Assembly (NCBI GenBank): GCA_016212665.1
Contig: JACREZ010000045.1
Span: 1 to 64,000, forward strand
DNA from: Ignavibacteriota bacterium
Lineage (GTDB): Bacteria > Bacteroidota > Ignavibacteria > UBA10030 > SZUA-254
Direction: 5' to 3'
Length of the DNA stretch: 64,000 nt
Shown here: positions 11,830-28,499 of the stretch, in pieces
Numbering within the stretch: the stretch's first letter is position 1
Layout: each line of letters opens with the position of its first letter
Made by a program: the position numbers and the translations under genes
The notes under the pieces: generated by a model
Told to the model about the DNA's origin: nothing
The model's database searches: none
The model's input: the letters and a program-made list of their open reading frames with translations, nothing else

Positions 11830-13188
11830 TCAGGGAATAATTATCTTCCCACCCGTATTCACCTTCACAAAATATCCTCTCCCCTTTCGTATCGTATCTG
11901 CCGGTTGATATATCAAATCAAATCCATAGAAAGGCGAGTCAATTATATTTGTCGGTAAAATGTTCAACTGTGAAACAGCAACATCGTGGTCTGATGCGCC
12001 GATAAGATTCCATCCGGTCGTGACATTGATTGTATCACTTCCTCGTACCTTGCCGAGAACCTGTATAGTATCAAACGAATTGAATTTAATCCAATACCCA
12101 ACTTTCGACCTGAGCGTTACATCATAAAAATACCCGTTTGGATTGTTGTAGTAATACGCATTTGAACCGGCATTGGGAAATACTGCTGTCTTGACTGGAT
12201 TATTTGGTGCTATTGGAAGCGATACGATATTCCATCCTGTTGCAACATTCATGCTTACAGAAACCGATGCAACCGTATCGGGAAAAGTAAAGTTGCAAAC
12301 GACAGGAATATGGTCGGCGGCGTAATATAATCCGTGAGCGACACTATCCGGCACAGCATAGTTCGGGAGACGATTGATGCTTGCATTGTAATGTTGTCCG
12401 TCGTTGCCAAATGCCTTGTAGGATGATACAATCATATTATCTTCATACAACGAGTACGACGGAAGAAGCATGTCGAAACGGTCATCCATGCCGCCGTTGG
12501 AAGATTGTGGAGCCTGTGTATGGTAAGCAGCATATGCAGATTGATTCCATGTTCCTGTCATGTTGAGCGGGTCTTTTACTCTTCCATCATTGTCTGAAGT
12601 ATTAGCAATCAACGTTTGGTATGCCGCTTCTGTACCTCCGTAGATATTGTAATCGCCTGCGATGATAAAATTTGTATTCGCCTGAAGTTGATTCAAATAA
12701 TCCCTGAGATACTCACTCTCCTGTCTCCTTCTTGCAGTGTCAGATGCACCTGCTTTTAAATGAAGTGAGTAGATTCTTAGTGATTCATCCGACCATTTTG
12801 GCTTGATTGTATATTCAGCGATGAAGCGGGTTAACACGCCGTTGGTTAAATAATTCACATTCACAATTTTTACTTTTGATGTATCATAGAAAATGGAATT
12901 GTCGGTATCCGGTCCATCGTAAAACTGCACTGTTGCATATTTGCCCGGCTGATAATAATTCATCACTTGGTTGAGGAACAGTGTAACTCCCGCCTGATTT
13001 ATTATTTCCTGCACTACAAGAACATCCGGTTTCATGTTGTGAATGACTTTTCGGAACTGTGTGTGCCGTGTCGAAGTATCGGAATAGTTCAGAATATTGT
13101 ATGAAGCGATCCGGAGTGTATCACCACCAAAGACCTGAGAACAAGTGAGAATAATAAGAGACAGAAGTAACGTATAAGAATTCTTCAT
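11830..13188 (-). CDS. secreted endonuclease/exonuclease/phosphatase family protein
   Basis: The ATG at 13188 gives about 452 residues with a clear signal peptide (MKNSYTLLLSLIILTCSQVFGG). The EEP fold is marked by RIASYNILNY, VVQEI, YSLHLKAGAS, IIAGDYNIYGG, a conserved MDDRFDMLLPS and the final ADHIPV, which together form the metal and catalytic site of DNase I-like phosphohydrolases. The last 130 residues hold two beta-rich repeats of the type 'TGWNIVSLP...GYWIKFN', common in secreted FCB-group proteins. No type IX sorting tail is visible. The substrate is unknown. Confidence 0.85.
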   Translation of the reverse strand: MKNSYTLLLSLIILTCSQVFGGDTLRIASYNILNYSDTSTRHTQFRKVIHNMKPDVLVVQEIINQAGVTLFLNQVMNYYQPGKYATVQFYDGPDTDNSIFYDTSKVKIVNVNYLTNGVLTRFIAEYTIKPKWSDESLRIYSLHLKAGASDTARRRQESEYLRDYLNQLQANTNFIIAGDYNIYGGTEAAYQTLIANTSDNDGRVKDPLNMTGTWNQSAYAAYHTQAPQSSNGGMDDRFDMLLPSYSLYEDNMIVSSYKAFGNDGQHYNASINRLPNYAVPDSVAHGLYYAADHIPVVCNFTFPDTVASVSVSMNVATGWNIVSLPIAPNNPVKTAVFPNAGSNAYYYNNPNGYFYDVTLRSKVGYWIKFNSFDTIQVLGKVRGSDTINVTTGWNLIGASDHDVAVSQLNILPTNIIDSPFYGFDLIYQPADTIRKGRGYFVKVNTGGKIIIP

Positions 13189-13273
13189 AACTGATTTCAA
13201 TATACAGAGATTGAAAAAGTAAGCCAAAGAAGTTCTTCACAGAAAATAATTTCACTCAAAGACGAAATTTCCC

Positions 13274-13302
13274 TTGACTAATTCAAAATTTCTTCGTATC
13301 CT
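13274..13302 (+). promoter_or_regulatory. trp operon promoter (sigma-70-like)
   Basis: TTGACT at 13274-13279 and TATCCT at 13297-13302 are separated by exactly 17 nt. Transcription would begin near 13308, just before the Trp-rich leader peptide and the attenuator hairpin. The fit to the consensus and the position make this a good candidate. Confidence 0.6.
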
Positions 13303-13331
13303 TATGCCAGATGAATTCTCAATCCAACGAT

Positions 13332-13409
13332 ATGATGTTGATGCGCACTTGGTACTGGTCATACTGGTATCAAATTCCGCGTTTTGTCGGTGGAAAGAGA
13401 AAGGCATAA
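13332..13409 (+). CDS. trpL: trp operon leader peptide
   Basis: A short open frame ends at TAA 13407-13409 and contains the run WYWSYWY, encoded by TGG TAC TGG TCA TAC TGG TAT at 13350-13370. Three Trp codons within six is the hallmark of a trp attenuation leader peptide. In-frame ATGs exist at 13311, 13332, 13335 and 13341; the exact start is unclear and no good Shine-Dalgarno sequence is visible. The stop lies 30 nt before a strong terminator hairpin, and trpE follows. Ribosome stalling at these codons in tryptophan shortage is expected to prevent terminator formation. Confidence 0.8.
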   Translation: MMLMRTWYWSYWYQIPRFVGGKRKA

Positions 13410-13439
13410 TTAGTTCTCCTAAAATAAAAAAAAATGAAG

Positions 13440-13469
13440 CCCTTCTTGGAACACCAAGAAGGGTTTTTT
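13440..13469 (+). terminator. trp attenuator (intrinsic terminator before trpE)
   Basis: CCCTTCTTGG (13440-13449) and CCAAGAAGGG (13454-13463) form a perfect 10-bp stem with a 4-nt loop, followed by six T. An A-rich stretch precedes it. An alternative antiterminator is possible: the segment at 13392-13405 (GGAAAGAGAAAGGC) can pair with the left arm of the stem. The trpE start codon lies 12 nt after the T-run. Confidence 0.85.
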
Positions 13470-13481
13470 GTTTCAACCGAA

Positions 13482-14945
13482 ATGACATTTGAAGAATTTG
13501 AAATATTAGGACAAACATACAACGTCATCCCCGTCAGCAAATCGTTGCTGGCAGATACGTTGACACCGGTCTCCGCCTATTTACGTTTGAGAAAAGAGAG
13601 CGATAAATCTTTTCTTTTTGAAAGCGTTGAAGGAGGAGAACGGATTGCGCGCTATTCATTCATCGGTAAAAATCCGATTGTGACATTGAAGTGTAAAGAG
13701 AAAACTACATGGATTTCGGAGAAAGGAATAACGTTCGAATCAAACAACAACTTCTTCGACATCATTGATAAAACGATAAGCAAGTACAAACAGCCAACAC
13801 TTCCGAATCTCCCCCGTTTTCGCGGCGGCTTGGTTGGATTTATCGGATACGATGCAATTCGGTTTGTTGAAAATATTCCCGCGTCAGTTTCGGACAGTTC
13901 TCCTATGTTCGACAGTATTCTCTCCCTCTACACAACTGTTCTTGCATTTGACCATCTCAAACATCAAATTATTATCATCGTCAATGTCGTTGTGAATCCA
14001 GATGAACCATTAATCGAACAATACAACAGCGCATTGAATGAGATTGCAACACTTGAATCACAACTTCGTGATTCAACTCCATCATCACATGAGTTCCATT
14101 CAGATTCAAACTCATTGAGGCATGAAATCGAACATGAACAATTTCTACAATCAGTTGAACAAGCAAAACATCACATCCATGAAGGAGATATTTTTCAAGT
14201 TGTTCTCTCGCAACGGTTCTCAACGTCGTATCATGGTGACTTGTTCAACGTGTATCGCGCGCTTCGCATCGTTAATCCTTCTCCCTATTTATATTATTTG
14301 TCGTTCGATGATTTTACTGTGATTGGTTCATCGCCTGAAATTCTTGTCCGTGTGGAAAACGGAGCGACAGAAGTTTATCCCATCGCCGGAACACGCAGGC
14401 GCGGCGCTACCGACGAAGAAGACAAACGGCTCGAAGCCGAACTTCTTGCCGACACGAAAGAACGAGCAGAACATATCATGCTTGTTGATTTAGGGAGGAA
14501 TGATTTGGGACGAGTGTGTGAAGTCGGCACAGTCAAAGTTGACCAACTGATGTTTGTGGTTCGATATTCTCACGTCATGCACATTGCTTCACGGGTTACC
14601 GGAAAAGTGGACAAAGAAAAATCGTGCGTGGATGTTTTGAAAGCAACATTTCCTGCCGGAACGGTGAGCGGAGCGCCAAAAATTCGCGCAATGGAAATTA
14701 TTGATAAACTCGAAAAGAGTCGAAGAGGAATTTATGCAGGCGGAGTCGGCTATTTTGATTTTTCGGGGAATATGGATATATGTATTGCCATCAGAACCAT
14801 GTTTGCAACAAACGATACGATATATCTTCAATCGGGCGCGGGCATCGTCGCCGATTCAAATCCTGAATCGGAGTATCGGGAAACAATCAACAAAGCACAG
14901 GCGCTTGTTGAAGCGCTCAAACTTGCCGAAGGAATGATGCGATGA
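13482..14945 (+). CDS. trpE: anthranilate synthase component I
   Basis: TrpE (488 residues) converts chorismate and ammonia or glutamine-derived nitrogen to anthranilate. The chorismate-binding domain is clear (GSSPEILVR, TRRRG, LLADTKERAEHIMLVDLGRNDLGRVCE, FPAGTVSGAPKIRAMEII, GYFDFSGNMDICIAIRT). The N-terminal region with SFLFESVEGGERIARYSFIG carries the usual tryptophan feedback-site pattern. I chose the ATG at 13482; an upstream in-frame ATG at 13434 would lie inside the attenuator hairpin. It overlaps trpG by 4 nt. Confidence 0.96.
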   Translation: MTFEEFEILGQTYNVIPVSKSLLADTLTPVSAYLRLRKESDKSFLFESVEGGERIARYSFIGKNPIVTLKCKEKTTWISEKGITFESNNNFFDIIDKTISKYKQPTLPNLPRFRGGLVGFIGYDAIRFVENIPASVSDSSPMFDSILSLYTTVLAFDHLKHQIIIIVNVVVNPDEPLIEQYNSALNEIATLESQLRDSTPSSHEFHSDSNSLRHEIEHEQFLQSVEQAKHHIHEGDIFQVVLSQRFSTSYHGDLFNVYRALRIVNPSPYLYYLSFDDFTVIGSSPEILVRVENGATEVYPIAGTRRRGATDEEDKRLEAELLADTKERAEHIMLVDLGRNDLGRVCEVGTVKVDQLMFVVRYSHVMHIASRVTGKVDKEKSCVDVLKATFPAGTVSGAPKIRAMEIIDKLEKSRRGIYAGGVGYFDFSGNMDICIAIRTMFATNDTIYLQSGAGIVADSNPESEYRETINKAQALVEALKLAEGMMR

Positions 14946-15505
14946 TTCTTCTGATTGACAATTACGATTCATTCACATACAACCTCGTTCAACTCATCGG
15001 GCAAATCCGAAGCGATATTCATGTCGTTCGCAATGATAAAATTTCAGTGAACGAAATCAAGCAATTGAATCCTGAACGAATCGTCATCTCACCCGGACCC
15101 GGGCGTCCCGAAAACGCAGGCATTTGTATTCAAGTTATCAAAGAGCTTGGAAAAACCATTCCGACACTTGGCGTTTGTCTTGGACATCAGGCAATAGGTT
15201 GCGCGTTCAATGGAACAATTACCTACGCGCCAACACTGATGCACGGCAAAACTTCAATGATACTTCACCAAGGCGAAGGAATATTTCGTTCGCTTGAAAA
15301 TCCTTTTGAAGCCACACGATATCATTCACTCGTGATTGCTAAAGAGAATTTCCCGAACGAATTGCTCATCACCGCAACGACGGACGACGGTGTCATCATG
15401 GCTATTCGACATAAAGAATTTCCGATTCAAGGAATTCAGTTTCACCCCGAATCTGTTCTAACAAAATCCGGTTACAAGTTAATGTCTAATTGGTTTGAAT
15501 CATGA
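14942..15505 (+). CDS. trpG: anthranilate synthase component II (glutamine amidotransferase)
   Basis: This class I glutamine amidotransferase (187 residues) supplies ammonia to TrpE. The active-site Cys lies in GVCLGHQAIG, the His-Glu pair in QFHPESVLT, and the oxyanion motif is SPGPGRPENAG. Overlaps of 4 nt with trpE and trpD point to translational coupling. Confidence 0.96.
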   Translation: MILLIDNYDSFTYNLVQLIGQIRSDIHVVRNDKISVNEIKQLNPERIVISPGPGRPENAGICIQVIKELGKTIPTLGVCLGHQAIGCAFNGTITYAPTLMHGKTSMILHQGEGIFRSLENPFEATRYHSLVIAKENFPNELLITATTDDGVIMAIRHKEFPIQGIQFHPESVLTKSGYKLMSNWFES

Positions 15506-16512
15506 AAGAATATCTTCAAAAACTTTGTGAGCTCGGTTCATTAACACAACTGGAAGCTAAATCTGCGATGAACATCATCATGGAAGGGGGAGCAACCGAT
15601 GCCCAAATCGCTGCGTTTCTGTTCGCCTTGAAAGCAAAGGGCGAGGCAGTGAGTGAGATTTCCGGTTTCGTGGAAGTGATGCGCGAAAAAGCAATTCACA
15701 TCAACGTTGATGACCCGAACGCGATTGATATGTGCGGAACCGGCGGTGACGGTTCGATGTCATTCAACATTTCGACTCTTGCATCAATCGTTGTTGCGGG
15801 CGGAGGTGTGACCGTTGCAAAACATGGTAACCGGGCGGTTTCAAGTTTAAGCGGAAGTGCAGGAATATTGAAAGCGCTTGGTGTGAATATCGAATTGGAA
15901 GTTCCGAAAACAGAAGCGTGTGTGAATTCAATCGGCATCGGGTTTTTGTACGCGCCACTTTTTCATCCGGCGATGAAACATGTTGCAAAAGTACGTTCGG
16001 AACTTGGCGTGAGAACAGTCTTCAATCTTCTCGGACCACTTACAAATCCCGCAGGAGTGGAGCGCCAATTACTCGGAGTTTTTAACAAAAAGGTTTCGAG
16101 AAGTATAACCGACGTAATGACTTCTTTGAAACCTGACCATGTTTGCGTTGTTTATTCGCTTGATGGATTGGATGAAGTGTCTCTCGGTGCGAATACGGTC
16201 GTCCGGGAAATCAAAAAGAAAACTGCGCCACGTCTTTTTGAGATTGAGCCGTCATCTTTTGGGTTGAATCAATCGCCGCCTTCATCTGTTCGCGGAGATT
16301 CACCTGAACATAATGCGAAAATTGCATTGACTATCCTTCAAGGCGAGAAAAGTCCGTACAGAGATTATGTTGTGGCAAATGCGGCAGCCGGATTTTATGT
16401 TGCAGGAAAAGTCGAAACAATTCAAGGCGGAGTTCCGCTCGCTCAGGAATCAATTGATTCAGGAAGAGCGTTGGAGAAATTGAAGCAACTCATTGAGTTC
16501 ACAAACCGATGA
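15502..16512 (+). CDS. trpD: anthranilate phosphoribosyltransferase
   Basis: TrpD (336 residues) joins anthranilate to PRPP, the second step of tryptophan synthesis. The PRPP-binding glycine loop CGTGGDGSMSFNIST and the KHGNRAVSS motif are present, with the anthranilate-site segment LGVRTVFNLLGPLTNP. It overlaps trpG and trpC by 4 nt each. Confidence 0.96.
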   Translation: MKEYLQKLCELGSLTQLEAKSAMNIIMEGGATDAQIAAFLFALKAKGEAVSEISGFVEVMREKAIHINVDDPNAIDMCGTGGDGSMSFNISTLASIVVAGGGVTVAKHGNRAVSSLSGSAGILKALGVNIELEVPKTEACVNSIGIGFLYAPLFHPAMKHVAKVRSELGVRTVFNLLGPLTNPAGVERQLLGVFNKKVSRSITDVMTSLKPDHVCVVYSLDGLDEVSLGANTVVREIKKKTAPRLFEIEPSSFGLNQSPPSSVRGDSPEHNAKIALTILQGEKSPYRDYVVANAAAGFYVAGKVETIQGGVPLAQESIDSGRALEKLKQLIEFTNR

Positions 16513-17297
16513 ACATTCTTCAACAAATTGTCGAATATAAACGGGATGAAGTCGCCAAGTTGAAACAGAAATATTCAATTTCTGATTTTCAATCATTTGA
16601 ATTCTTTCAAAGAAAAACTATTTCACTCCGACATTCACTGAACACCACAACGCCTTTTGCTGTGATTGCAGAAATCAAACGCGCATCTCCATCCGCAGGA
16701 AGTTTACGGATTGATATTCGACCACAAACCATTGCCGGCGAGTATGAATCTAATGGCGCGGCAGGAATATCTGTCCTGACTGATGAGAAATTTTTTTCCG
16801 GTACAATCAAAGATTTATCTGAAGTTAGAAATGTTGTCAGACTTCCGCTTCTCCGAAAAGATTTTATCATTGATGAGCACCAACTTCACGAAGCGAAAGT
16901 TGCCGGCGCGGATGCTGTGTTACTTATTGCCGTTATTCTTGAGAAGCAACAACTATCTGATTTACACTCTGCTGCATCAGAACTTGGTTTGGAATCCCTT
17001 GTAGAACTCTACGAAGAAAGAGAAATTGAAAAACTCGATTTCGACTCGATGAAACTTGTCGGCATCAACAACCGAGATTTGAAAACGATGACGATTGATA
17101 TTAACCATTCGATTGAATTATCCCGCTTCATTCCAAAAGATACTACGTTGGTAAGTGAAAGCGGAATTCATTCTACCGATGGTCTCCGAAAATTAAAAGA
17201 TGCCGGAATAAAGGCGGCGTTGATTGGTGAGTACCTTATGAAATCAAAACAACCCGGACTTGCATTGAAACAATTGTTAGAAAGTACGGAACGATGA
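16509..17297 (+). CDS. trpC: indole-3-glycerol phosphate synthase
   Basis: TrpC (262 residues) is a beta/alpha-barrel enzyme that closes the indole ring. Conserved segments are FAVIAEIKRASPSAG, SVLTDEKFFSG, LLRKDFIIDEHQ (catalytic Lys), LVELYEEREIE, VGINNRDLKT and VSESGI. It is a separate protein here, not fused to TrpF. Confidence 0.96.
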   Translation: MNILQQIVEYKRDEVAKLKQKYSISDFQSFEFFQRKTISLRHSLNTTTPFAVIAEIKRASPSAGSLRIDIRPQTIAGEYESNGAAGISVLTDEKFFSGTIKDLSEVRNVVRLPLLRKDFIIDEHQLHEAKVAGADAVLLIAVILEKQQLSDLHSAASELGLESLVELYEEREIEKLDFDSMKLVGINNRDLKTMTIDINHSIELSRFIPKDTTLVSESGIHSTDGLRKLKDAGIKAALIGEYLMKSKQPGLALKQLLESTER

Positions 17298-17337
17298 CTT
17301 CGAGTAGCTTTGTGTTTCTTCGTGCTCTTAGTGGTTT

Positions 17338-17949
17338 ATGAAGCCATTGGTAAAAATCTGTGGTATCACGAACTTTGCTGATGCGCTCTTCTGTGCAACT
17401 GCCGGAGCGAACTATTTAGGATTTATTTTTTATGAAAATAGTCCCCGATATATTCAGCCATCGAAAGCGAGAGAGATTATCAGAAATCTCCCGTCGAGTG
17501 CTACACCCGTAGGAGTGTTCGTCAACGAGATGCGGGAAATCATTGAACGAACAATTCGGGAAACGACCATCAAACTCATTCAACTCAGCGGAGATGAATC
17601 TCCCGATGACTGTTCTGAATTTTCAGTTGAAGTGTGGAAAGCGTTTCGTCTGTCAAAGCATGATGAAGTAAATCAAACAAAGGAATATAAAATATCTGCC
17701 GCGTTACTTGATGGCTCGAGCAATGGGTTGTACGGCGGAACAGGAAACCATGCGGATTATTCAATTGCACAGGAACTGAAAAAGATTCACCGTCTTGTAT
17801 TTGCCGGTGGTTTAAATCCTGACAACATTTGTGAAGCAATCCACACTGTTCAACCATTCGCTGTGGATATAAACAGCGGAATCGAACTTGTTCCCGGAAA
17901 GAAAAACCATCAAAAAGTAAAATTATTATTTGATAAACTGAACCAATAA
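17338..17949 (+). CDS. trpF: phosphoribosylanthranilate isomerase
   Basis: TrpF (203 residues) isomerises N-(5'-phosphoribosyl)anthranilate. The start VKICGITNFADALFCATAGANYLGFIFYENSPRYI and the end FAGGLNPDNICEAI...DINSGIE are typical, with the catalytic Cys in KICGIT and the Asp in DINSGIE. A 40-nt spacer with the word TTTGTGTTTCTTCGTGCTC separates it from trpC. Confidence 0.95.
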   Translation: MKPLVKICGITNFADALFCATAGANYLGFIFYENSPRYIQPSKAREIIRNLPSSATPVGVFVNEMREIIERTIRETTIKLIQLSGDESPDDCSEFSVEVWKAFRLSKHDEVNQTKEYKISAALLDGSSNGLYGGTGNHADYSIAQELKKIHRLVFAGGLNPDNICEAIHTVQPFAVDINSGIELVPGKKNHQKVKLLFDKLNQ

Positions 17950-18112
17950 AAAATGGTCAATAGTGAATTGCCAACTGTCAATTGTCAATGTTTTGATTTA
18001 CCATTGATAATTGACCGTTCAGAACTGACAATTTGAAACATCAAAACTACAAACCCAAAACGAATATTATTTCACTTTTAACTTTGAACTTTAAACTTTT
18101 AACTCTGCAAGC
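17950..18112. repeat. intergenic short-period degenerate repeats
   Basis: The spacer between trpF and aroF is built of words like GTCAATTGTCAATG, TTGATAATTGACCG and AACTTTGAACTTTAAACTTTTAACT, with periods of 8-9 nt. Related words occur at 58150-58180 and in other spacers. No promoter or terminator stands out. Confidence 0.5.
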
Positions 18113-19135
18113 ATGCTTATTTTAATGAAATTAGACGCGCCTCGTTCCGACATTGAGCGGGTGAAAGAAAAAATATCAAGCCTCGGCTACGCGCCGCATG
18201 AAATCCCAGGCGAAGCACGAATGGCAATAGGCGTCACCGGAAACCGCGGCAAGATTGACCCCGAACTTTTCCTCAATCTCCCCGGAGTTCTTGATGCAAT
18301 TCCGGTTACAAAGCCGTACAAACTTGCAAGCAAAGATTTCAAAGCATTAAGTACGACTGTTCAAATCGGAAATGAGTTTGTCGGGGCGAATGAATTGACG
18401 ATTATTGCAGGACCTTGTTCTGTCGAAAGTCGTCAACAGATTGTTGATACGGCAGGAATTTTGAAAGAACTTGGAATTAGGTTTCTGCGCGGCGGAGCGT
18501 ATAAGCCGCGAACTTCTCCCTACGCGTTTCAGGGATTGAAACAAGAAGCATTACAGTATTTAAAGGATGCACGTACCGCAACGGGATTGAATATTGTCAC
18601 CGAAGTAAAAGATACTGAAACGCTTCCGCTCGTTTCAGAGTGTGCGGATGTTCTTCAAATCGGCGCAAGGAACATGCAAAACTATTCTTTGCTTGAAGCG
18701 GTTGGCGCGCTGCAAAAGCCCGTTCTTCTTAAACGGGGACTTTCTGCAACTATCGAAGAATGGCTGATGGCGGCAGAATATATTTTGAACGGCGGCAATC
18801 CGAATGTTATTTTGTGCGAGCGTGGCATCAGAACATTTGAAACGGCAACACGCAACACGCTCGATTTGAACGCCGTCCCGATAGTGAAGAAACTTTCTCA
18901 CCTTCCCATCATCGTTGACCCGAGCCACGGCATTGGTGTGTGGGAAGGAGTGATTCCGATGTCGCTCGCCTCTGTTGCGGCAGGTGCGGATGGATTGATG
19001 ATTGAAGTTCACCACAATCCTGAAACTGCTTTGTCAGATGGTTACCAATCGCTTAAGCCATCAAAAATGAAATTGCTGTTGGAACAATTACGACAACTCG
19101 CGCCGATTATGAACAGAACATTGACGCTCAAATAA
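18113..19135 (+). CDS. aroF: 3-deoxy-7-phosphoheptulonate (DAHP) synthase, type I-beta
   Basis: The 340-residue enzyme condenses phosphoenolpyruvate and erythrose 4-phosphate, the first step of the shikimate pathway. An N-terminal ferredoxin-like regulatory domain (about 1-70) precedes the barrel, as in the Thermotoga-type enzyme, where it mediates feedback control. Barrel motifs include [56 protein letters not shown] and EVHHNPE. It lies 2 nt before trpB inside the operon. Confidence 0.95.
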
Positions 19136-19137
19136 TC

Positions 19138-20334
19138 ATGGCAGATATACAATCACTTCCTGATTCATCCGGTCACTTCGGCAAATACGGCGGGCGATTC
19201 GTTCCCGAAACATTGATGTCCGCCTTGTTTGAATTGGAACATGCCTACAATTCAATCAAACATGATGAGACATTTCAAAACAGATTTAATGACTTACTGA
19301 AAAACTATGTCGGTCGTCCGACTCCACTCTATTTTGCTGAACGACTAACACAAAGATTCGGCAAAGCAAAAATCTATTTGAAGCGTGAAGACTTGTGTCA
19401 TACCGGCGCACACAAAATTAATAATACAATCGGACAGATTCTTCTTGCAAAGCGAATCGGGAAAACAAGAATCATTGCCGAAACCGGAGCGGGACAGCAC
19501 GGAGTCGCCACAGCAACTGTTGCCGCTATGATGGGTTTGGAGTGCATCGTCTATATGGGAACGGAAGACATGCAACGACAGGAAATCAACGTAACGAGAA
19601 TGAGATTGCTCGGCGCCGAAGTTCGCCCTGTCAGTTCGGGAACCGGAACGTTAAAGGACGCAATCAACGAGGCGTTGCGTGATTGGGTAACAAATGTTCG
19701 AAACACGTTTTATGTGATTGGTTCTGTCGTTGGTCCGCATCCGTATCCAATGATGGTGAGAGATTTTCAATCAGTGATTGGAAAAGAGACGAAACAACAA
19801 ATGTTGGAGAAAGAACATCGCTTACCCGATTATTTAGTTGCGTGTGTCGGCGGCGGCAGTAATTCGATTGGTTTGTTTTATGATTTTCTCCAAGATTTAT
19901 CTGTGAAGATTTTTGGAGTTGAAGCAGCGGGACACGGAATTGAAACAGGTAAACACGCAGCAACTCTCACAGCGGGAAAACCCGGAGCGCTTCACGGCTC
20001 ATTCAGTTACATTTTGCAAGATGAAGACGGACAAGTAATTCCCGCTCACTCTATCTCTGCCGGACTTGATTATCCCGGTGTCGGACCTGAACATAGTTAT
20101 TTGAAAGATTCAGGTCGAGTTCAATATGTTTCCATCCAAGATGATGAAGCATTGAAAGCCGGACTTGAGTTAACCCGACTCGAAGGAATTCTCCCTGCGT
20201 TAGAATCATCTCATGCGTTGGCGTATCTTGAATATCTGATACCGAAGACAAATCCAAACGAAATTGTGGTTGTAAATCTTTCTGGACGCGGGGAGAAGGA
20301 TTTACCGACGATAATTCGAAATACCCTAACATAA
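19138..20334 (+). CDS. trpB: tryptophan synthase beta chain
   Basis: TrpB (398 residues) is the PLP enzyme that joins indole and serine. The PLP lysine lies in [13 protein letters not shown], the phosphate-binding loop is [10 protein letters not shown], and [10 protein letters not shown] and [12 protein letters not shown] are typical. It is separated from trpA by about 700 nt containing a toxin-antitoxin pair, although the two gene products form one complex. Confidence 0.97.
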
Positions 20335-20401
20335 TCCTGACTTTCTTTTGTTTTTCAAAATTCATGCTTATCTTGTTAAAGACTTTCATTCAGAGTGAAC
20401 A

Positions 20402-20659
20402 ATGGAAATACTTTCAAAAGCAATAGAAACGACTGCTCAGTTTACCACTAAACGCAACCTTATCTTAGATAAGCCATTATTAAATGTGAAAGACGGGAGT
20501 AAAGTTAGAGTCATTATTTTACTTCCGGATGAAGATGACATTGATGAACTGTTGTGGCTAAAAGCCGCATCCTCGAACGAAGCATTTGCATTCTTAAAAG
20601 AGCCTGATGAGGACATTTATACTGTAAAAGACGGTAAACCATTCAATGATAAAGAATAA
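20402..20659 (+). CDS. probable antitoxin of a MazF/PemK-type module
   Basis: The 85-residue acidic protein starts with a short region that looks like an AbrB/PHD-type beta segment (TKRNLILDKPLLNVKDGSKVRVIILL) and ends with a flexible acidic tail. It overlaps the MazF/PemK-like gene by 14 nt, the usual antitoxin-first order. A possible promoter (TTTG at 20347-20350 and TATCTTG at 20369-20375, 18 nt apart) lies upstream. Confidence 0.65.
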   Translation: MEILSKAIETTAQFTTKRNLILDKPLLNVKDGSKVRVIILLPDEDDIDELLWLKAASSNEAFAFLKEPDEDIYTVKDGKPFNDKE

Positions 20660-20987
20660 GATTGTCCTTGTACAATTCCCTTTTGATGATTTGTCATCAT
20701 TCAAAGTCCGTCCCGCAGTTTGTTTGACCAATACAATCGGTTCACACAATCATGTTATCGTAGGTTTCATCACCAGCAAGATACCTTCCGACATCTTGCC
20801 TTCCGATGTCATACTTACAACCAGTGATAAGGATTTTGAAATTACCGGGCTCCGTGTTTCCTCAACCCTACGACTTCACCGACTCCTGACAGTTTCAAAG
20901 TCAAATTTCATTCGTGAATTAGGCATAATCCCAGAGAGAATTCAAAATACTGTTTCAACGAAATTAAAACTTCTATTTGAGTTTTAA
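20646..20987 (+). CDS. MazF/PemK family toxin
   Basis: The 113-residue protein fits the PemK/MazF fold of endoribonuclease toxins: NKIVLVQFPFDDLSSFKVRPAVCLTN at the start, HVIVGFITSKIP in the middle and SSTLRLHRLLTVSKSNFIRELGIIPE near the end. The conserved RPA and S/T-x-L-R-L-x-R-type elements are visible. It is encoded between trpB and trpA, which normally are adjacent. Confidence 0.75.
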   Translation: MIKNKIVLVQFPFDDLSSFKVRPAVCLTNTIGSHNHVIVGFITSKIPSDILPSDVILTTSDKDFEITGLRVSSTLRLHRLLTVSKSNFIRELGIIPERIQNTVSTKLKLLFEF

Positions 20988-21026
20988 AGTTTTTTCCCCG
21001 AATTATTTTGCTATTGTTAATACTGA

Positions 21027-21815
21027 ATGAACAAGTTATCTACTTACGTTCACAAACTAAACCACAAAACCCTTTCTCTCTTCATCACCGCCGGTTTCCC
21101 AACACTCGAAACCACTGTTCCACTTGTTGTTGAACTTGCGAACGCCGGTGCAGATGTGATTGAACTTGGCATTCCATTTTCTGATCCGGTTGCTGATGGA
21201 CCCGTAATTCAAATGAGTTCAGAAGTTGCGCTTAGGAATGGAGTAACTCTTCAAAATACTTTTGAAATGGTTGCAGAGATTCGAAAGGAAACCAACATTC
21301 CGCTTGTGTTGATGGGTTATGCAAATCCGATTTTTGCTTTCGGATTAGAAAAATTTCTTTCCACTTGCAAACAACTCGGAGTTAATGGTACAATCATCGC
21401 AGACCTGCCGATTGAAGAAAGTACAGAATATCGAACGCTGGCAAAGCAATATGATATTTCTATAATCTTCCTCGCAACACCAACCACTCCCGATGAACGA
21501 TTGAAATTGCTCGATGAAGCATCGAATGGATTTCTTTATTGTGTTTCTATTACGGGAGTGACGGGAGAACGTCAGCAGATTTCACAACAGGCGAAGGATT
21601 TTCTAACTCGTGCGAGAAAGGTCGTAACGAAAAATCCGTTGTTTGTCGGCTTCGGGATTTCGACTCCTGAAGATGCGAAAGAACTTGCTCAATATGCGGA
21701 CGGCATCATCATCGGAAGTGCGCTCATCAAGATTCTTCAGTCTGCAAAAGATGGAAATGCTATTGCAGATGCGAAAAAGTTTGTACATTCCATTCGTCAA
21801 TCTCTCGATTCGTAA
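21027..21815 (+). CDS. trpA: tryptophan synthase alpha chain
   Basis: TrpA (262 residues) cleaves indole-3-glycerol phosphate and passes indole to TrpB. The catalytic Glu lies in ELGIPFSDPVADGPVIQ and the catalytic Asp in IIADLPIEES. GFGISTPEDA and the glycine-rich phosphate site are present. After the inserted toxin gene, weak promoter-like elements (TTTG at 20976, TATTTTG at 21004) precede it, so it may have its own start. It is 6 nt from aroB. Confidence 0.96.
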   Translation: MNKLSTYVHKLNHKTLSLFITAGFPTLETTVPLVVELANAGADVIELGIPFSDPVADGPVIQMSSEVALRNGVTLQNTFEMVAEIRKETNIPLVLMGYANPIFAFGLEKFLSTCKQLGVNGTIIADLPIEESTEYRTLAKQYDISIIFLATPTTPDERLKLLDEASNGFLYCVSITGVTGERQQISQQAKDFLTRARKVVTKNPLFVGFGISTPEDAKELAQYADGIIIGSALIKILQSAKDGNAIADAKKFVHSIRQSLDS

Positions 21816-21821
21816 ATCCAC

Positions 21822-22901
21822 ATGAAACTCAGAGTACATCTCAAAAAAACAATTGACGATTCCTACGATATTCATATCGGCATACGGCTTGCAGATGCTG
21901 TGAAGCAGATTGCCAAGATGAAACTTGGGAGTAAGTACTTCATTATCACCGATACAAATGTTCAGAAATTGTATGGAAAAAAGTTCTGCCGATTGATGAC
22001 GGAATGGAAATTAGAAACCGTCCTCCTCTCTATTCATTCCGGAGAAGAATATAAAAACCGACAGACGAAGGCGTTACTTGAAAATGAAGTGCTGAAGTTG
22101 AACGCAGGTCGGGATTCTGTTTTCATTGCACTCGGTGGCGGAGTTGTCGGAGATATTACAGGATTTGTCGCAGCGACTCTTCATCGCGGAGTTCCGTTCT
22201 TACAAATTCCAACCACACTTCTTGCACAGGTTGATAGCTCCATCGGCGGGAAAGTTGCTGTTGACCATCCGCTTGGGAAGAATTTGATTGGCGCGTTTTA
22301 TCAACCGAAAGCAGTCTTTATTGATACAACAACACTACATACGTTGCCTGATTCAGAATTCTCAAATGGAATGGCGGAAATTATCAAGTACGCGGCAATC
22401 ATGGATGCGGACTTGTTTGAGTTCCTTGATGCAAATTCAAAAAAGATTTTGAACAACGATGAACGAGTTCTCAATAAAATTATCAAGCGATGTTGTGAGT
22501 TGAAACGTTACGTTGTCGAACGAGATGAAAAAGAAACAGACCTGAGGCGAATTCTGAATTTCGGACATACGATTGGTCATGCACTCGAATCATTAATGAA
22601 TTATAAAATGTCACACGGACAGGCAGTTGCAATCGGGATGGTAGCAGAGACAAAAATCTCTGTTGCGCTTGGATTGATTGAGCCGGATGCAGTTGAGTGT
22701 ATCGAATATATGCTTCGTAAATACAATCTGCCGACAGAAATTCCATCGAACATTGATTTGAAGAAATTGTTCGAAGCAACTCTTCAAGACAAGAAAGCAA
22801 AGTCAGGAATTGTTCATTACTCCTTGCTTCAAGAAATCGGAAAAGCAAAGGTTGGAGTTCCGCTTACACATTTGGAAGCTTTGAAATTGTTCAGGCAATG
22901 A
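21822..22901 (+). CDS. aroB: 3-dehydroquinate synthase
   Basis: AroB (359 residues) converts DAHP to 3-dehydroquinate using NAD and a divalent metal. Motifs are ALGGGVVGDITGFVAATLHRGVPFLQIPTTLLAQVDSSIGGK split into its usual parts, NGMAEIIKYA, and the metal His in LNFGHTIGHALE and SHGQAVAIGM. The gene overlaps the next one by 4 nt. Confidence 0.96.
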   Translation: MKLRVHLKKTIDDSYDIHIGIRLADAVKQIAKMKLGSKYFIITDTNVQKLYGKKFCRLMTEWKLETVLLSIHSGEEYKNRQTKALLENEVLKLNAGRDSVFIALGGGVVGDITGFVAATLHRGVPFLQIPTTLLAQVDSSIGGKVAVDHPLGKNLIGAFYQPKAVFIDTTTLHTLPDSEFSNGMAEIIKYAAIMDADLFEFLDANSKKILNNDERVLNKIIKRCCELKRYVVERDEKETDLRRILNFGHTIGHALESLMNYKMSHGQAVAIGMVAETKISVALGLIEPDAVECIEYMLRKYNLPTEIPSNIDLKKLFEATLQDKKAKSGIVHYSLLQEIGKAKVGVPLTHLEALKLFRQ

Positions 22902-24313
22902 AGATTTGTTGCTCAATCGCTCCGTCAACCATGAACGAAGCGTTTCAGAAAATCAAACAAGCAGTAAAAGAGACTGAACTCATCGAGATTCGGGTTGATG
23001 GAATTTCTGACCTCGATATTTCAAAACTTCTCCAAAAGCCACGTCCCAAATTCATCATAACAAATAGAAGAATTGAAGAAGGCGGAAAGTTCTCCGGTTC
23101 TTTGAATGAGAATTTGAAAATACTTGCAGAGGCAGTCAAACATCAAACAGAATATGTTGACATAGAATTGAGTTGGGGAACAAATGCGGTACAACAACTC
23201 GTTGCTCAATCTGCTAAAACAAAGATTATTGTTTCATACCATAACTTTGATGAGACTCCTTCCAACCTTTTCAACATCTACAAGAAAATGAAAACAACGG
23301 GCGCGCATGTTTTCAAAATCGTAACGATGGCGAAGGATATATCTGACAACAAAACAATGTTTGATTTATTAACGCTTGCACGAAGTGAAAAGCGAAAACT
23401 TCTTGCATTCTGCATGGGAGAACGGGGACAAATCAGCAGAATTCTGCAAGGTAAATTTGGCGGACAGTTTATGTATGCTCCAATTTCTGTTGACGAGGAG
23501 ACAGCCCCCGGGCAGTTGAACATTCAGGATTTGAAAAATACATTCCGAGTTCATATTTTGAACTCACGAACTAAGGTTTTTGGACTCATTGGTAATCCGG
23601 TCTCGCAAAGCAAAGGGATTTATTTTCACAATTCAATCTTTGCTCGGAAAAACCTCAACGCAGTTTACGTCAACTTTCTTGTTGATAATCTTCCACTGTT
23701 TTTCAAATCATATCGCGATATGATTTGCGGACTCAGTGTAACGATGCCATTCAAACAAGAAATTCTTCCGATGCTTGATGAAGTTGAAACAGATGCGAAC
23801 GAACTTCGAGCCGTCAATACAGTCATCAAAAAAAGAAAGAAACTGTACGGGACAAACACGGATTTGCCTGCCATCTTACAATGTTTGAAAAAGCGAACGT
23901 CACTCAGAAACAAACGAGTAACAGTTCTCGGAACAGGCGGCACAGCACGCACGATGGCGTATGCGGCAATACTCATTGGAGCCAAAACAACAATTATCGG
24001 AAGAAACGAAAATAAATCACGCACGCTTGCAAACGAATTGGGTTGCGAGTGGGCAAAACCAAAATCATTTTCAGAAGTACACACAGATATTTTGATGAAC
24101 GGAACGAGCGTCGGCATGAACTCGACAGAAATTCCGTTCAATGTTCATAACCATCTCCGTCACACCATGACAGTTTTTGATGCAGTATATTCACCTCCAA
24201 TGACATCCCTCCTTGTCGCCGCAAAAGCAGCGGGCTGCAAGATTATTACCGGATTAGAATTTTTTCAAACTCAAGCAAAGTTACAATCAAAGTTGTTCAC
24301 CGAATCATTATGA
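22898..24313 (+). CDS. aroDE: bifunctional 3-dehydroquinate dehydratase (type I) / shikimate dehydrogenase
   Basis: This 471-residue fusion carries out two successive steps. Residues about 1-220 are a type I dehydroquinase, with the catalytic His in VSYHNFDETP, the Schiff-base Lys in VFKIVTMAKD and the closing segment APGQL. Residues about 226-471 are shikimate dehydrogenase, with GLIGNPVSQSKG, the catalytic Lys in VTMPFKQ, NTDLPA, the NADP loop LGTGGTART and TGLEFFQTQA. Similar fusions are known in plants and some bacteria. Overlaps of 4 nt flank it on both sides. Confidence 0.93.
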   Translation: MKICCSIAPSTMNEAFQKIKQAVKETELIEIRVDGISDLDISKLLQKPRPKFIITNRRIEEGGKFSGSLNENLKILAEAVKHQTEYVDIELSWGTNAVQQLVAQSAKTKIIVSYHNFDETPSNLFNIYKKMKTTGAHVFKIVTMAKDISDNKTMFDLLTLARSEKRKLLAFCMGERGQISRILQGKFGGQFMYAPISVDEETAPGQLNIQDLKNTFRVHILNSRTKVFGLIGNPVSQSKGIYFHNSIFARKNLNAVYVNFLVDNLPLFFKSYRDMICGLSVTMPFKQEILPMLDEVETDANELRAVNTVIKKRKKLYGTNTDLPAILQCLKKRTSLRNKRVTVLGTGGTARTMAYAAILIGAKTTIIGRNENKSRTLANELGCEWAKPKSFSEVHTDILMNGTSVGMNSTEIPFNVHNHLRHTMTVFDAVYSPPMTSLLVAAKAAGCKIITGLEFFQTQAKLQSKLFTESL

Positions 24314-25587
24314 ATGAAGTTCCATCTCGTTCAATACGAACCATCGAGACGTTAGACGCCGAGGTTCGTGTCCCTCCATCAAAAAGTTACACCAACCGTG
24401 CGCTCATCGTTGCATCGCTTGCCGATGGAATTACGATTCTCTCCAATACATCAAGCAGTGATGATTCAAAATATCTCGTCGAAGCGTTGAAACAATTTGG
24501 CATCGGAATTACCAATCAGGATAACCTCATTCAAGTTGAGGGCACGTCAGGAAATCTCACCGCACCGCATCAAGAAGTGTTTGTGGGAAATGCAGGAACT
24601 GCTATCCGCTTTCTCGCGACGTTCTCTTGTTTAGCAAACGGTGAAGTAACTCTTACTGGCGATGAGGCAATGCAAAAACGTCCCATCAAAGATTTGCTTG
24701 ATGCGTTGACAATGGCAGGAATTAGATCTTCAAGCAACAATGGCTGTCCTCCGGTTAAAATTCAAGGCGGTAATTTCAAAGGCGGAGTAATTTCACTCTC
24801 TGCAAACATCAGCAGTCAGTTTGTCTCTTCGATTTTGCTTTCTGCGCCGTACTCAAAATATCCGGTCACCCTCAACATCAAAAATAAATTAAGTTCAACT
24901 CCGTATGTTGATATGTCGCTTCACGTGATGCGTTCATTCGGCGCTGAGATTGAAGTTATCGAACCGTACACTTCATACTATATTTCAAACACTGAACGGT
25001 ATATCGCTGAGCCGTTTCATATCGAAGCGGATGCTTCTGCAGTAACATACTTTGCCGCAGCGGCGGCAATCACCGGTGGAAAAGTTTCCGTTGCTGATGT
25101 TTCTCTTGATTCACTTCAAGGTGACATTCGATTTCTAAGTGTTTTGAAAGAGATGGGTTGCAAAATTATTAAACGTGAAAACGTTGTTGAGATTCAGGGA
25201 AATGGACTCAGAGGAATCGAAGTTGACATGAACGATATTCCTGATTGTGTTCCGACACTTGCAGTTGTCGCCGCATTTGCTGAAGGTGAAACGACAATTT
25301 CAAACGTTGCACATCTACAGTTTAAAGAATCAAACAGATTAATTGCGCTTGCCGCTCAACTTACCAAACTCGGTGCGAAGGTGAAAGTACTTGAAGACGG
25401 ATTGCTCATTCGACCTCAGCCGTTGCATGGAGCGACAATTGAAACATATAACGACCACCGGATTGCAATGAGTTTTGCAATCGCGGGGTTGAAAGTTCCG
25501 GGAGTTGAAATTCTCAATCCGATGTGCGTGACAAAATCATTCCCGAATTTTTGGGATGAATTCAAAAAGTTAGAAGAAAGTTGTTAA
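24310..25587 (+). CDS. aroA: 3-phosphoshikimate 1-carboxyvinyltransferase (EPSP synthase)
   Basis: AroA (425 residues) adds enolpyruvate to shikimate 3-phosphate. Conserved parts are VPPSKSYTNRALIVASLA, GNAGTAIRFL, DEAMQKRPIKDLLDAL, QFVSSILLSAPY, DASAVTYFAAAAAI and the C-terminal LQFKESNRL and YNDHRIAMSFAIAGL. A separate shikimate kinase gene is not seen in this window. Confidence 0.96.
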   Translation: MNEVPSRSIRTIETLDAEVRVPPSKSYTNRALIVASLADGITILSNTSSSDDSKYLVEALKQFGIGITNQDNLIQVEGTSGNLTAPHQEVFVGNAGTAIRFLATFSCLANGEVTLTGDEAMQKRPIKDLLDALTMAGIRSSSNNGCPPVKIQGGNFKGGVISLSANISSQFVSSILLSAPYSKYPVTLNIKNKLSSTPYVDMSLHVMRSFGAEIEVIEPYTSYYISNTERYIAEPFHIEADASAVTYFAAAAAITGGKVSVADVSLDSLQGDIRFLSVLKEMGCKIIKRENVVEIQGNGLRGIEVDMNDIPDCVPTLAVVAAFAEGETTISNVAHLQFKESNRLIALAAQLTKLGAKVKVLEDGLLIRPQPLHGATIETYNDHRIAMSFAIAGLKVPGVEILNPMCVTKSFPNFWDEFKKLEESC

Positions 25588-25589
25588 TC

Positions 25590-26927
25590 ATGGCTGGAAA
25601 TTCATTCGGCAAGTTCTTTCGTATCACCACGTTCGGGGAAAGTCACGGTAAGGCAGTTGGAGTTTTGATTGACGGAGTGAAACCCAATCTCCCTTTTTCG
25701 CTCGATGGAATTCAAAAAGAATTGAACAGACGACGACCGGGGCAGAGTGGCGTTACAACTCCGCGAAACGAAACCGACCAAGTTCAAGTATTGAGCGGCG
25801 TGTTTGAAGGAAAGACTCTCGGCACCCCAATCTGTCTTTTGATTTGGAACAAAGACCAAAACTCGAAAGCATACGAAAGTATCAAGAATTTATTCCGACC
25901 CGGACACGCGGCGTTCACATACTTGTCGAAATATGGAATTCAGGATTATCGAGGCGGCGGTCGTTCATCAGCAAGAGAAACCGCCGGACGTGTTGCGGCA
26001 GGTGCGTTGGCAAAACAAATTCTCGCTAAACGCGGGATTAAAATTTATGCTTACACAAAACAAGTCGGCAACATTACCGCGAAAGAAATTGATTTTTCTG
26101 AAATTGAAAAGAATCCTGTTCGATGCGCTGATGCAAAAGTCGCGAAGAAAATGGAGAGGGCAATTCTTAAAGTAAAAAAAGAAGGCGACTCGCTCGGCGG
26201 CGTTGTTGAAGCAGTCATCACGGGAGTTCCTGCGGGACTTGGAGAGCCGGTGTTCGATAAACTCGAAGCTGATTTGGCGAAAGCACTCCTCTCTATTCCG
26301 GCAATTAAAGGCTTTGAAATCGGTTCAGGATTTGCCGCCGCGAAAATGAAAGCGAGCGAACACAACGACGAGTTTTACAAAGAGAAGAAAAGCGGCAAAG
26401 TTCGAACCAAAACAAATTTTGCCGGAGGAATTCTCGGCGGAATTTCCAACGGCGAAGATATTGTCGTTCGTGTTGCAGTGAAGCCGCCGTCGTCAATCCT
26501 TAAAACTCAGGAAACAGTTGACACCAAAGGGAAGAAACGAACCATCAAAGTTGAAGGTCGCCACGACCCATGTCTTTGTCCGCGTGCTGTCCCTGTCGTT
26601 GAATCAATGCTCGCTCTCGTTCTTGCCGACCATCTGATGCGACAAACCTTGACCAAACATCAAACAGGACTTGCACGAATCAGGGAAGAAATTGATATTG
26701 TAGATGACATGCTTTTGCTTCTACTCGCCCAACGCATGGAATTAGTTTCAGAAGTCGGCAAATGGAAGAAGAACAACAGCAAACCAATTCCTGACAAAAA
26801 ACGGGAACAAGACATCATAAAAAAACGATTACGTGTTGCCCAATCATCAGGGCTTGATGAAACATTTATTCGGAAATTATACCACCTCATTCTTACTCAA
26901 GGAAAAACCATTCAAGCAATAGTATGA
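25590..26927 (+). CDS. aroC: chorismate synthase fused to a C-terminal chorismate mutase domain
   Basis: Residues about 1-350 are FMN-dependent chorismate synthase (FFRITTFGESHGKAVGVLIDG, RRRPGQS, FRPGHAAFTY, YRGGGRSSARETAGRVAAG, GGISNGEDIVVRVAVKPPSS, EGRHDPCLCPRAVPVVESM). Residues about 355-445 form an AroQ-type chorismate mutase, with the pattern RIREEIDIVDDMLLLLLAQRMELVSEVGKWKK and the C-terminal helices. The protein would make chorismate and turn it directly into prephenate, the substrate of the next gene, tyrA. The ATG at 25590 is preferred; an earlier TTG adds three residues. Confidence 0.93.
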   Translation: MAGNSFGKFFRITTFGESHGKAVGVLIDGVKPNLPFSLDGIQKELNRRRPGQSGVTTPRNETDQVQVLSGVFEGKTLGTPICLLIWNKDQNSKAYESIKNLFRPGHAAFTYLSKYGIQDYRGGGRSSARETAGRVAAGALAKQILAKRGIKIYAYTKQVGNITAKEIDFSEIEKNPVRCADAKVAKKMERAILKVKKEGDSLGGVVEAVITGVPAGLGEPVFDKLEADLAKALLSIPAIKGFEIGSGFAAAKMKASEHNDEFYKEKKSGKVRTKTNFAGGILGGISNGEDIVVRVAVKPPSSILKTQETVDTKGKKRTIKVEGRHDPCLCPRAVPVVESMLALVLADHLMRQTLTKHQTGLARIREEIDIVDDMLLLLLAQRMELVSEVGKWKKNNSKPIPDKKREQDIIKKRLRVAQSSGLDETFIRKLYHLILTQGKTIQAIV

Positions 26928-27661
26928 GAACAGAAATCGGATTAATCGGATTCGGAAGATTCGGTCAGTATGCATCACGAAAATTACGGAGACATTTTAA
27001 CGTTTGTTACTACGACCCCAAATCAGTGAAAACCATTGACCCGGGAGAACGGGAAGTAACACTCGATGAAGCGGCTTCGAAAGATTATGTCGTGCTTGCA
27101 GTTCCAATCAACCAGATGCCTGCAATACTCAAGGCAATATCGAAAAAAGTGAAACCAGGCGCCATCATCTTCGATGTTTGCTCGGTCAAAGAATTGCCGG
27201 TACAATGGATGAAGGATTCACTCCCCCAATCTGTTTCTATCGTCGGAACACATCCGCTCTTCGGTCCGGATAGCGCAGTAACTTCCTTAGCAGGCAAACT
27301 AATATTTCTCACCCCTGTAAGAATAAAACGGGAATTATTTGAAATCGTTCGGATACAATTAACCTCCAATAGTCTCGTCGTTCACGAAATCTCTCCGACC
27401 GAACATGACTTACTTATGGCAAAAACATTATTCATGACACAATTTGTCGGACGAAGTCTCATCAACCTTGATTTGCCGCAAACAATGTACTCGACAGAAA
27501 ATTACAAAAATCTTCGTCAAATCATCGAGTACGCTGATAACGACACGGAAGAATTATTTAAAGATATGTACGGTTATAACCGTTACGCGCGAAAAATTTG
27601 CCAGCGGTACTCACAGGAACTGCAACAACTCTTCACAAAATTAGAGCACCAGGGGATGTAA
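26924..27661 (+). CDS. tyrA: prephenate dehydrogenase
   Basis: The 245-residue protein has an N-terminal NAD-binding Rossmann fold (GLIGFGRFGQYASRKL) and the prephenate-binding segment VGTHPLFGPDSAV with the catalytic His. It lacks a chorismate mutase or ACT domain, consistent with the mutase being attached to AroC upstream. It overlaps aroC by 4 nt. An arogenate dehydrogenase activity cannot be excluded. Confidence 0.88.
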   Translation: MRTEIGLIGFGRFGQYASRKLRRHFNVCYYDPKSVKTIDPGEREVTLDEAASKDYVVLAVPINQMPAILKAISKKVKPGAIIFDVCSVKELPVQWMKDSLPQSVSIVGTHPLFGPDSAVTSLAGKLIFLTPVRIKRELFEIVRIQLTSNSLVVHEISPTEHDLLMAKTLFMTQFVGRSLINLDLPQTMYSTENYKNLRQIIEYADNDTEELFKDMYGYNRYARKICQRYSQELQQLFTKLEHQGM

Positions 27662-27699
27662 CGAAATGGTTAATCATAACGAAACTTGTAATTTATTTT

Positions 27700-28428: not shown

Positions 28429-28435
28429 AATTGCT

Positions 28436-28482
28436 ATATGAGATATGTGATGTGAGATGGTTGTATCACACATATCTCATAT
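28436..28482. repeat. inverted repeat between convergent genes
   Basis: ATATGAGATATGTG (28436-28449) pairs perfectly with CACATATCTCATAT (28469-28482) over 14 bp. No T-run follows on either strand, so it is not a classical terminator, though it lies between the convergent bshB1 and mutL ends. Similar words (CATATCTCAT, CGCATATC) recur at 44885-44925. Confidence 0.5.
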
Positions 28483-28499
28483 CCCAAATCGCATATCGC

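Follow-up and report, generated by a model that had tools for sequence, protein, structure and literature searches.

A conserved Trp-codon leader and predicted transcription attenuator before a trp–aro–tyrA supraoperon in a deep-branching Bacteroidota lineage

Comparison of related genomes makes it highly probable that a 14-gene operon for aromatic amino acid synthesis, in a deep-branching lineage of Bacteroidota, is controlled by classical ribosome-mediated transcription attenuation, with predicted readthrough into the entire supraoperon. The stretch of DNA analysed here (the window, 64,000 nucleotides) is part of contig G000:C45 of a 3.9-Mb genome, and all coordinates refer to its + strand unless noted. 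A promoter, a leader ORF, an antiterminator strand and an intrinsic terminator lie in that order before trpE in the window sequence. The first-pass annotation of this DNA had recognized the same succession, placing the promoter, the Trp-rich frame, a possible antiterminator and a 10-bp terminator with six T where we find them. Three observations point to Bacteroidota in the broad sense: this genome has at least 150 T9SS sorting domains, against an above-cut-off match in one of 14 control genomes; the 16S of a class member comes closest to Persicobacter, Aureibacter and similar plasmid-borne 16S; and the leader locus L032 is labelled as an uncultured Bacteroidetes, the only named match with the leader in a contig scan that returned mostly distant trpE genes.

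The promoter combines a −35 box TTGACT (13274–13279) and a −10 box TATCCT (13297–13302) across a 17-nt spacer, matching at 9 of 12 positions; its equivalent in relatives reads TTGACA-N17-TATCCT/TATATT, and the majority of class leaders keep a promoter in the same position. The leader ORF (13311–13409) encodes a peptide of 32 residues, MNSQSNDMMLMRTWYWSYWYQIPRFVGGKRKA, and closes with a TAA stop codon at 13407–13409; its start, Trp cluster and C-terminus are conserved in relatives. The first-pass annotation had correctly identified three Trp codons within WYWSYWY, but its short peptide has to be extended, since alignment with the frames of relatives (MNSQSND..., MKSQSNN..., MNSTTEH..., MNSTTKY... 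or MNATIKH..., all sharing the C-terminus GGKRxA before the stop) sets the start at ATG 13311 and not within the Trp-rich part. The control codons W-Y-W-S-Y-W-Y occupy 13350–13370, with TGG at 13350, 13356 and 13365, TAC at 13353 and 13362, and TAT at 13368. The terminator (13440–13469) consists of a 10-bp stem (13440–13449 with 13454–13463) around the loop AACA, reading CCCTTCTTGG(AACA)CCAAGAAGGG over 13440–13463, followed by six T at 13464–13469; it is conserved in relatives and is the sole strong + strand terminator within 13200–28700. Folding of the leader RNA gave z = −4.5. Relatives place the start of TrpE at 13482; the ATG at 13434 proposed by the ORF finder, directly before the terminator stem, is not the start.

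Two further structures were observed around these elements. The Trp/Tyr codons of the window can form an 11-bp hairpin of their own (13347–13374, UUGGUACUGGU-CAU-ACUGGUAUCAA), which recurs with G-U changes in the same-genus genome G002 and is not clear in other family members. The idea that this hairpin belongs to the conserved switch lost weight, the hairpin being strong only in the genus of the window. On the − strand, the hairpin at 13440–13463 is likewise followed by a T-rich run (CTTCATTTTTTTTT), and no − strand gene ends there.

A Trp-rich short frame is not rare by itself: three TGG within six codons of a short frame occur twice in the 64-kb window, compared with 0–3 times in shuffled windows. 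This similar density of chance frames, together with a hairpin that also scores on the − strand, would be what one expects if the hairpin simply ended transcription of some adjacent gene and the Trp frame were a coincidence. We consider that explanation extremely improbable. The upstream neighbour (11830–13227) lies on the opposite strand, so that no + strand gene terminates at 13440–13469, and the joint conservation of leader and terminator through the class already contradicts it. It is this comparative evidence of conservation that we take as decisive for the reality of the arrangement.

The family of the window comprises 15 genomes, ten of which carry this trpE; leader and terminator lie upstream of trpE in nine of the ten, and in the tenth (G001) the contig begins inside the 3′ arm of the terminator. 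The first-pass annotation held that absence of the Trp frame or of the terminator from this spacer in relatives would speak against attenuation, and both are present. Newly fetched loci of the class showed the same layout in 18 of 21 cases. In total, a Trp-cluster leader with a terminator was found in 33 genomes of the same class, the layout extending to families f2, f3, f5, f6, f9, f14 and f24 with clusters such as WAWFWY, WWWW and WFWWW. It accompanies complete trpEGDCF-trpBA operons. Among the fetched loci, those of f4, f12 and f20 and the remaining ones of f6 carry trpE with trpG only, and no leader before trpE was seen in those scanned. One family member, L023 (G007), encodes a divergent TrpE (47% identity, long branch), its leader having WW after YSYP and its terminator a different sequence.

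Similar frames occur outside the class, where loci were scanned for frames and a terminator was recognized by a simple scan in only part of them. Trp leaders of the type ...NTWWWPNAYISSGIVA stand upstream of trpE in other classes of the phylum (L200–L228); a single family has WWW(P) leaders at 28 of 28 loci, and Trp-cluster frames were also present in f28, f34, f38, f47, f49, f52 and f54; the frame scan found none before trpE in f26, f29, f31, f33, f44 and f45.

The operon behind the switch was identified gene by gene with NCBIfam models. It begins with trpE (13482–14945; TIGR00564 above cut-off, start set by relatives) and continues with trpG, trpD, trpC and trpF (14942–17949), a DAHP synthase of the B. 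subtilis type and trpB (18113–20334), trpA, aroB, aroD-aroE (aroDE) and aroA (21027–25587), and finally an aroC–chorismate mutase fusion and tyrA, the prephenate dehydrogenase gene (25581–27661). This bears out the large downstream gene set of the first-pass annotation, in which the DAHP synthase was called aroF and the fusion aroC-aroQ, and the set recurs as a unit in the family: gene order is the same in the five fetched members with long enough contigs. No chorismate synthase gene other than aroC was found in the genome, where tyrA likewise gives the sole PDH_N (prephenate dehydrogenase domain) match. An early view of the DAHP synthase of the trp operon as the sole one was dropped, the genome having three DAHP-type genes and one KDO8P-synthase-like match. 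Scanning 13200–28700 revealed no second strong + strand terminator inside the operon, and promoter-like matches within it are only slightly more frequent than expected from shuffled sequence; the 163 bp ahead of the DAHP synthase gene and the ~690-bp trpB–trpA interval, for example, may hold internal promoters. The latter interval holds a gene for a PemK/MazF-like toxin (20646–20987, PF02452), found in this genome only; trpB and trpA are adjacent in the five fetched family members, which are without it.

Sequence comparison identifies, besides the parts and their conservation, a set of alternative helices. Strand 1 (13316–13341, codons 2–11 of the leader) is the partner of strand 2 in a protector or pause-type helix. 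Strand 2 (13389–13405) is the antiterminator strand and ends 1 nt before the stop codon; its segments GGUG (13389–13392), GAGAA (13397–13401) and GGC (13403–13405) pair in the window with CACC (13452–13455, in the loop and the start of the 3′ arm), UUCUU (13443–13447, in the 5′ arm) and GCC (13439–13441), respectively, so that its partner spans 13439–13455. The antiterminator proposed in the first-pass annotation, 13392–13405, was thus essentially right. Other families use different letters in the same antiterminator role (CCCGGUGAAU with AUUCACCGGG, CUCAGUGA with UCACUGAG and UUGGUGUUC with GAAUACCAA).

Swapped and shuffled partners served as controls for these pairings. Among the 33 genomes, strand 2 paired with its own terminator at −18.0 kcal/mol and with swapped terminators at −13.0 kcal/mol (0 of 20,000 permutations), and strand 1 paired with its own strand 2 at −17.5 kcal/mol versus −12.2 kcal/mol with swapped ones (0 of 20,000 permutations). 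Tests at the level of families are given as well because kinship within families inflates such counts. When each family was represented by a single genome and all terminators were exchanged, pairing of strand 2 as good as the real one arose in 0 of 3000 draws when the full terminator strand was used, and in a fraction of 0.0007 (0.07%) when the loop and 3′ arm were used alone.

Constrained co-transcriptional folding, in which the ribosome was taken to cover 30 nt, yielded the logic expected of an attenuator. When no ribosome was placed, the helix of strands 1 and 2 formed, followed by the terminator; a ribosome at the stop codon covered strand 2, the antiterminator was absent and the terminator followed; and with a ribosome at the Trp codon at 13365 and the 5′ side blocked, the antiterminator kept 10–12 bp up to RNA position 13460. 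Given this footprint, the stop codon lies where a terminating ribosome covers the antiterminator strand, whereas stalling at the cognate codons leaves that strand uncovered. Folded at full length to equilibrium, the terminator is always more stable than the antiterminator, which means that the switch must be kinetic; the attenuation decision in the E. coli trp operon is understood as kinetic too. Collectively, the sequence and structural features of a classical attenuator were found: an ORF with clustered codons, a terminator, a co-varying and exclusive antiterminator, a protector helix of strands 1 and 2 and a suitably placed stop codon. The helices sought by folding and their covariation across relatives, together with conservation, back the earlier reading of this region as Trp attenuation by a leader peptide.

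From this arrangement we infer the start site, ribosome stalling and the response to tryptophan. Transcription would begin a few bases upstream of the AUG at 13311. If the leader were not translated, strand 1 at the start of the ORF would pair with strand 2 at its end, and the terminator would form. With ample charged tRNA-Trp, the ribosome would reach the stop codon at 13407, its footprint lying over 13389–13405, and the terminator at 13440–13463 would again form. Under scarcity of charged tRNA-Trp, the ribosome would stall at 13350–13367 and leave strand 2 free to pair with the emerging 5′ arm, the loop and the first bases of the 3′ arm of the terminator, allowing polymerase to read through trpEGDCF-DAHPS-trpBA-aroB-aroDE-aroA-aroCQ-tyrA. 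Through the Tyr codons interspersed with those for Trp, a shortage of tyrosine may open the switch too. Because strand 1 is located 5′ of the Trp codons, a single stalled ribosome does not cover it; what keeps it off strand 2 may be steric exclusion or a second ribosome waiting at the AUG, since the 39 nt between the AUG and the first Trp codon leave room for one.

Could a different tryptophan-responsive RNA device, such as a TRAP-type site, a T-box or a riboswitch, occupy the same place? A terminator before trpE would fit such a device, and there is a weak Rfam similarity to the trpB motif (RF04312, 25.2 bits, below the cut-off of 59), a motif described from Firmicutes and Fusobacteria (PMC11109978). 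Rfam, however, gave no T-box or riboswitch match and no gathering-score match to its leader families, among which the trpB motif scored best and His_leader reached 24 bits (cut-off 49). Inspection of 13309–13480 by eye showed isolated (G/U)AG triplets (GAG/UAG) only, not a run of ~11 as a TRAP-type site would have. Such a device, moreover, would need neither a conserved Trp frame nor an antiterminator at the end of the ORF, and we judge it very unlikely.

The distance from the −10 box to the leader AUG is only 8 nt in the window, and its median is 10 nt (range 4–17) across 30 class leaders whose promoters match at 8 or more of 12 positions. This short spacing suggests a nearly leaderless mRNA with little or no 5′ UTR. 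A near-leaderless start is also known from Sinorhizobium meliloti trpL (PMC7298713), whose released RNA and peptide, rnTrpL and peTrpL, act in trans. A comparable additional role for the leader RNA or peptide of the window would agree with this likeness and with the strong conservation of the peptide C-terminus GGKRxA in the family. The latter loses weight because the base pairing of strand 2 accounts for C-terminal conservation, and action in trans appears unlikely here.

The leader of the window mixes Tyr with Trp codons, and the response to tyrosine is the least certain part of the attenuation model. When residues between the Trp codons or up to three codons away from the cluster were counted, Tyr stood at 21 of 86 positions and in 11 of 12 genomes of f1, f2 and f3, which have tyrA in the trp operon, versus 1 of 114 positions and 1 of 17 genomes of f5, f6, f14 and f24, which do not. 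Family f9 departs from this correspondence: Tyr makes up 10 of 30 residues, in 4 of 4 genomes, with no tyrA found in the trp cluster; G042 carries tyrA at another place in its genome, and the incomplete G087 yielded none. In the TrpE tree all Tyr-bearing leaders fall into one clade, f9 being nested next to f2, so that the Tyr leaders represent one evolutionary change and are phylogenetically unreplicated. One gain, with tyrA lost later in f9, would account for this distribution as a single event. The initial idea of Tyr codons as a general feature of the class was dropped, as they are confined to this clade.

The same genome carries a second leader with aromatic codons. In contig G000:C15 (L180:4149–4310), a Phe/Tyr leader, MNFRRFYFYYFYFSPISPSPDLERRS (short form MNFRRFYFYYFYF...), with a GC-rich terminator precedes two tandem DAHP synthase genes (L180:4314–6467), the second DAHP synthase pair. 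Its promoter, TTGACA/TATACT, lies ~7 nt from the AUG, again a near-leaderless spacing; the terminator was detected with a widened loop limit and missed with short ones. Tyr/Phe leaders with terminators also precede DAHP synthase genes, tyrA or aro clusters in G012, G008, G016, G021, G149, G018 and G161. Tyr/Phe-rich leader loci of the class comprise L194, L195, L196, L182, L189, L190 and L192, with clusters such as YYFYFYFYFF in L192 and YYDWYY in L194. Their occurrence in several genomes suggests that mixed aromatic leaders are a habit of these bacteria.

Two readings of the Tyr codons have to be weighed. The presence of tyrA and of the only chorismate synthase behind the switch suggests that these codons may serve tyrosine sensing, as the first-pass annotation had surmised; dual Trp/Tyr sensing is plausible, and we hold it about as probable as its opposite. 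The retention of Tyr codons throughout the clade, tyrA in the operon and the separate Tyr/Phe leaders favour that suggestion, whereas their restriction to one unreplicated clade counts against it. Alternatively, the leader may sense tryptophan only, with the Tyr codons incidental, reflecting constraints of RNA structure, relaxed positions or aromatic neighbours inherited by descent, a reading to which we give slightly less than an even chance. Trp clusters are universal and Tyr is limited to one clade, f9 keeps its Tyr codons with no tyrA found in its trp cluster, the codons sit in a hairpin in the genus of the window and may be constrained otherwise, and N-terminal Tyr codons of other families lie within the strand 1 pairing (AUAUUA with UAAUAU, for example). 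Set against this, Tyr adjoins the Trp cluster in 15 of the 16 genomes of f1, f2, f3 and f9 at changing positions, most of these Tyr-bearing genomes are without the hairpin, tyrA and the sole aroC lie inside the operon, and the second leader of the same genome uses Tyr/Phe codons. A broader proposal, with evenly divided prospects in our assessment, is that the Trp/Tyr leader on the trp-aro-tyrA supraoperon and the Phe/Tyr leader on the tandem DAHP synthases would each integrate two tRNA chargings, the codons having changed when tyrA entered the trp operon.

As far as sequence can tell, the window leader shares its mechanism with the trp attenuator of E. coli, every feature assessable here being present. 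Both have clustered Trp codons in a leader, a protector helix of strands 1 and 2, an antiterminator and an intrinsic terminator before trpE (textbook knowledge, cited in PMC4833913). Unlike E. coli trpL, to which it has no sequence relation or Rfam match, the window leader is near-leaderless, its strand 1 precedes the Trp codons instead of spanning them, its strand 2 is contained in the leader ORF, reaching to the stop codon, and also pairs with the loop and the 3′ arm of the terminator, it mixes in Tyr codons, and the operon behind it is much larger.

Likenesses to other systems are partial. S. meliloti trpL shares a leader ORF at or near the 5′ end of the transcript (PMC7298713). It differs in being alphaproteobacterial, in its 14-aa peptide and in controlling trpE(G) only. 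To our knowledge it contains no Tyr codons, and we know of no described Trp/Tyr leader. Mixed codons, with several end products per leader, occur in the E. coli ilv and thr leaders, where they are branched-chain or Thr/Ile. The trp attenuators predicted in Corynebacterium and Streptomyces are classical, with double or triple UGG repeats, and likewise lie outside Proteobacteria; they belong to another phylum, and the parts of PMC1262725 that concern us report no Tyr mixing. The trp/aro supraoperon of Bacillus subtilis also unites trp genes with tyrA and aro genes, all governed by a single control that is based on a terminator (PMC1173090), but acts through the TRAP protein instead of a leader peptide. 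Putative attenuators have been listed for tyrA supraoperons, namely Bacteroides thetaiotaomicron pheA-tyrA and Desulfovibrio vulgaris aro-trp, the latter joined to the trp operon (PMC1173090, Table 7); these are database predictions of 2005 with another gene order, and leader peptides are not described in that part of the source.

A 2010 survey knew leader-peptide attenuation only from Proteobacteria and Actinobacteria, plus its own new his case in Firmicutes (PMC2965389). In the open literature we found nothing specific on trp leaders in Bacteroidota. Broader and older computational surveys of attenuation may list some. The Trp leader design appears conserved across much of Bacteroidota and hardly described there. 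Attenuation by leader peptide is conserved through a class, within which its co-varying helices were tested, and through several other Bacteroidota families; it appears to be a principal form of Trp control across a large part of the phylum. The near-leaderless start raises the question of how the first ribosome is timed with polymerase. The spread through the phylum and the mixed-codon leaders are the points that a specialist may not expect. In the lineage of the window, attenuation would extend to a whole aromatic supraoperon, and the mixed Trp/Tyr and Phe/Tyr leaders offer a naturally occurring example of leaders whose codons may follow the gene content of their operons.
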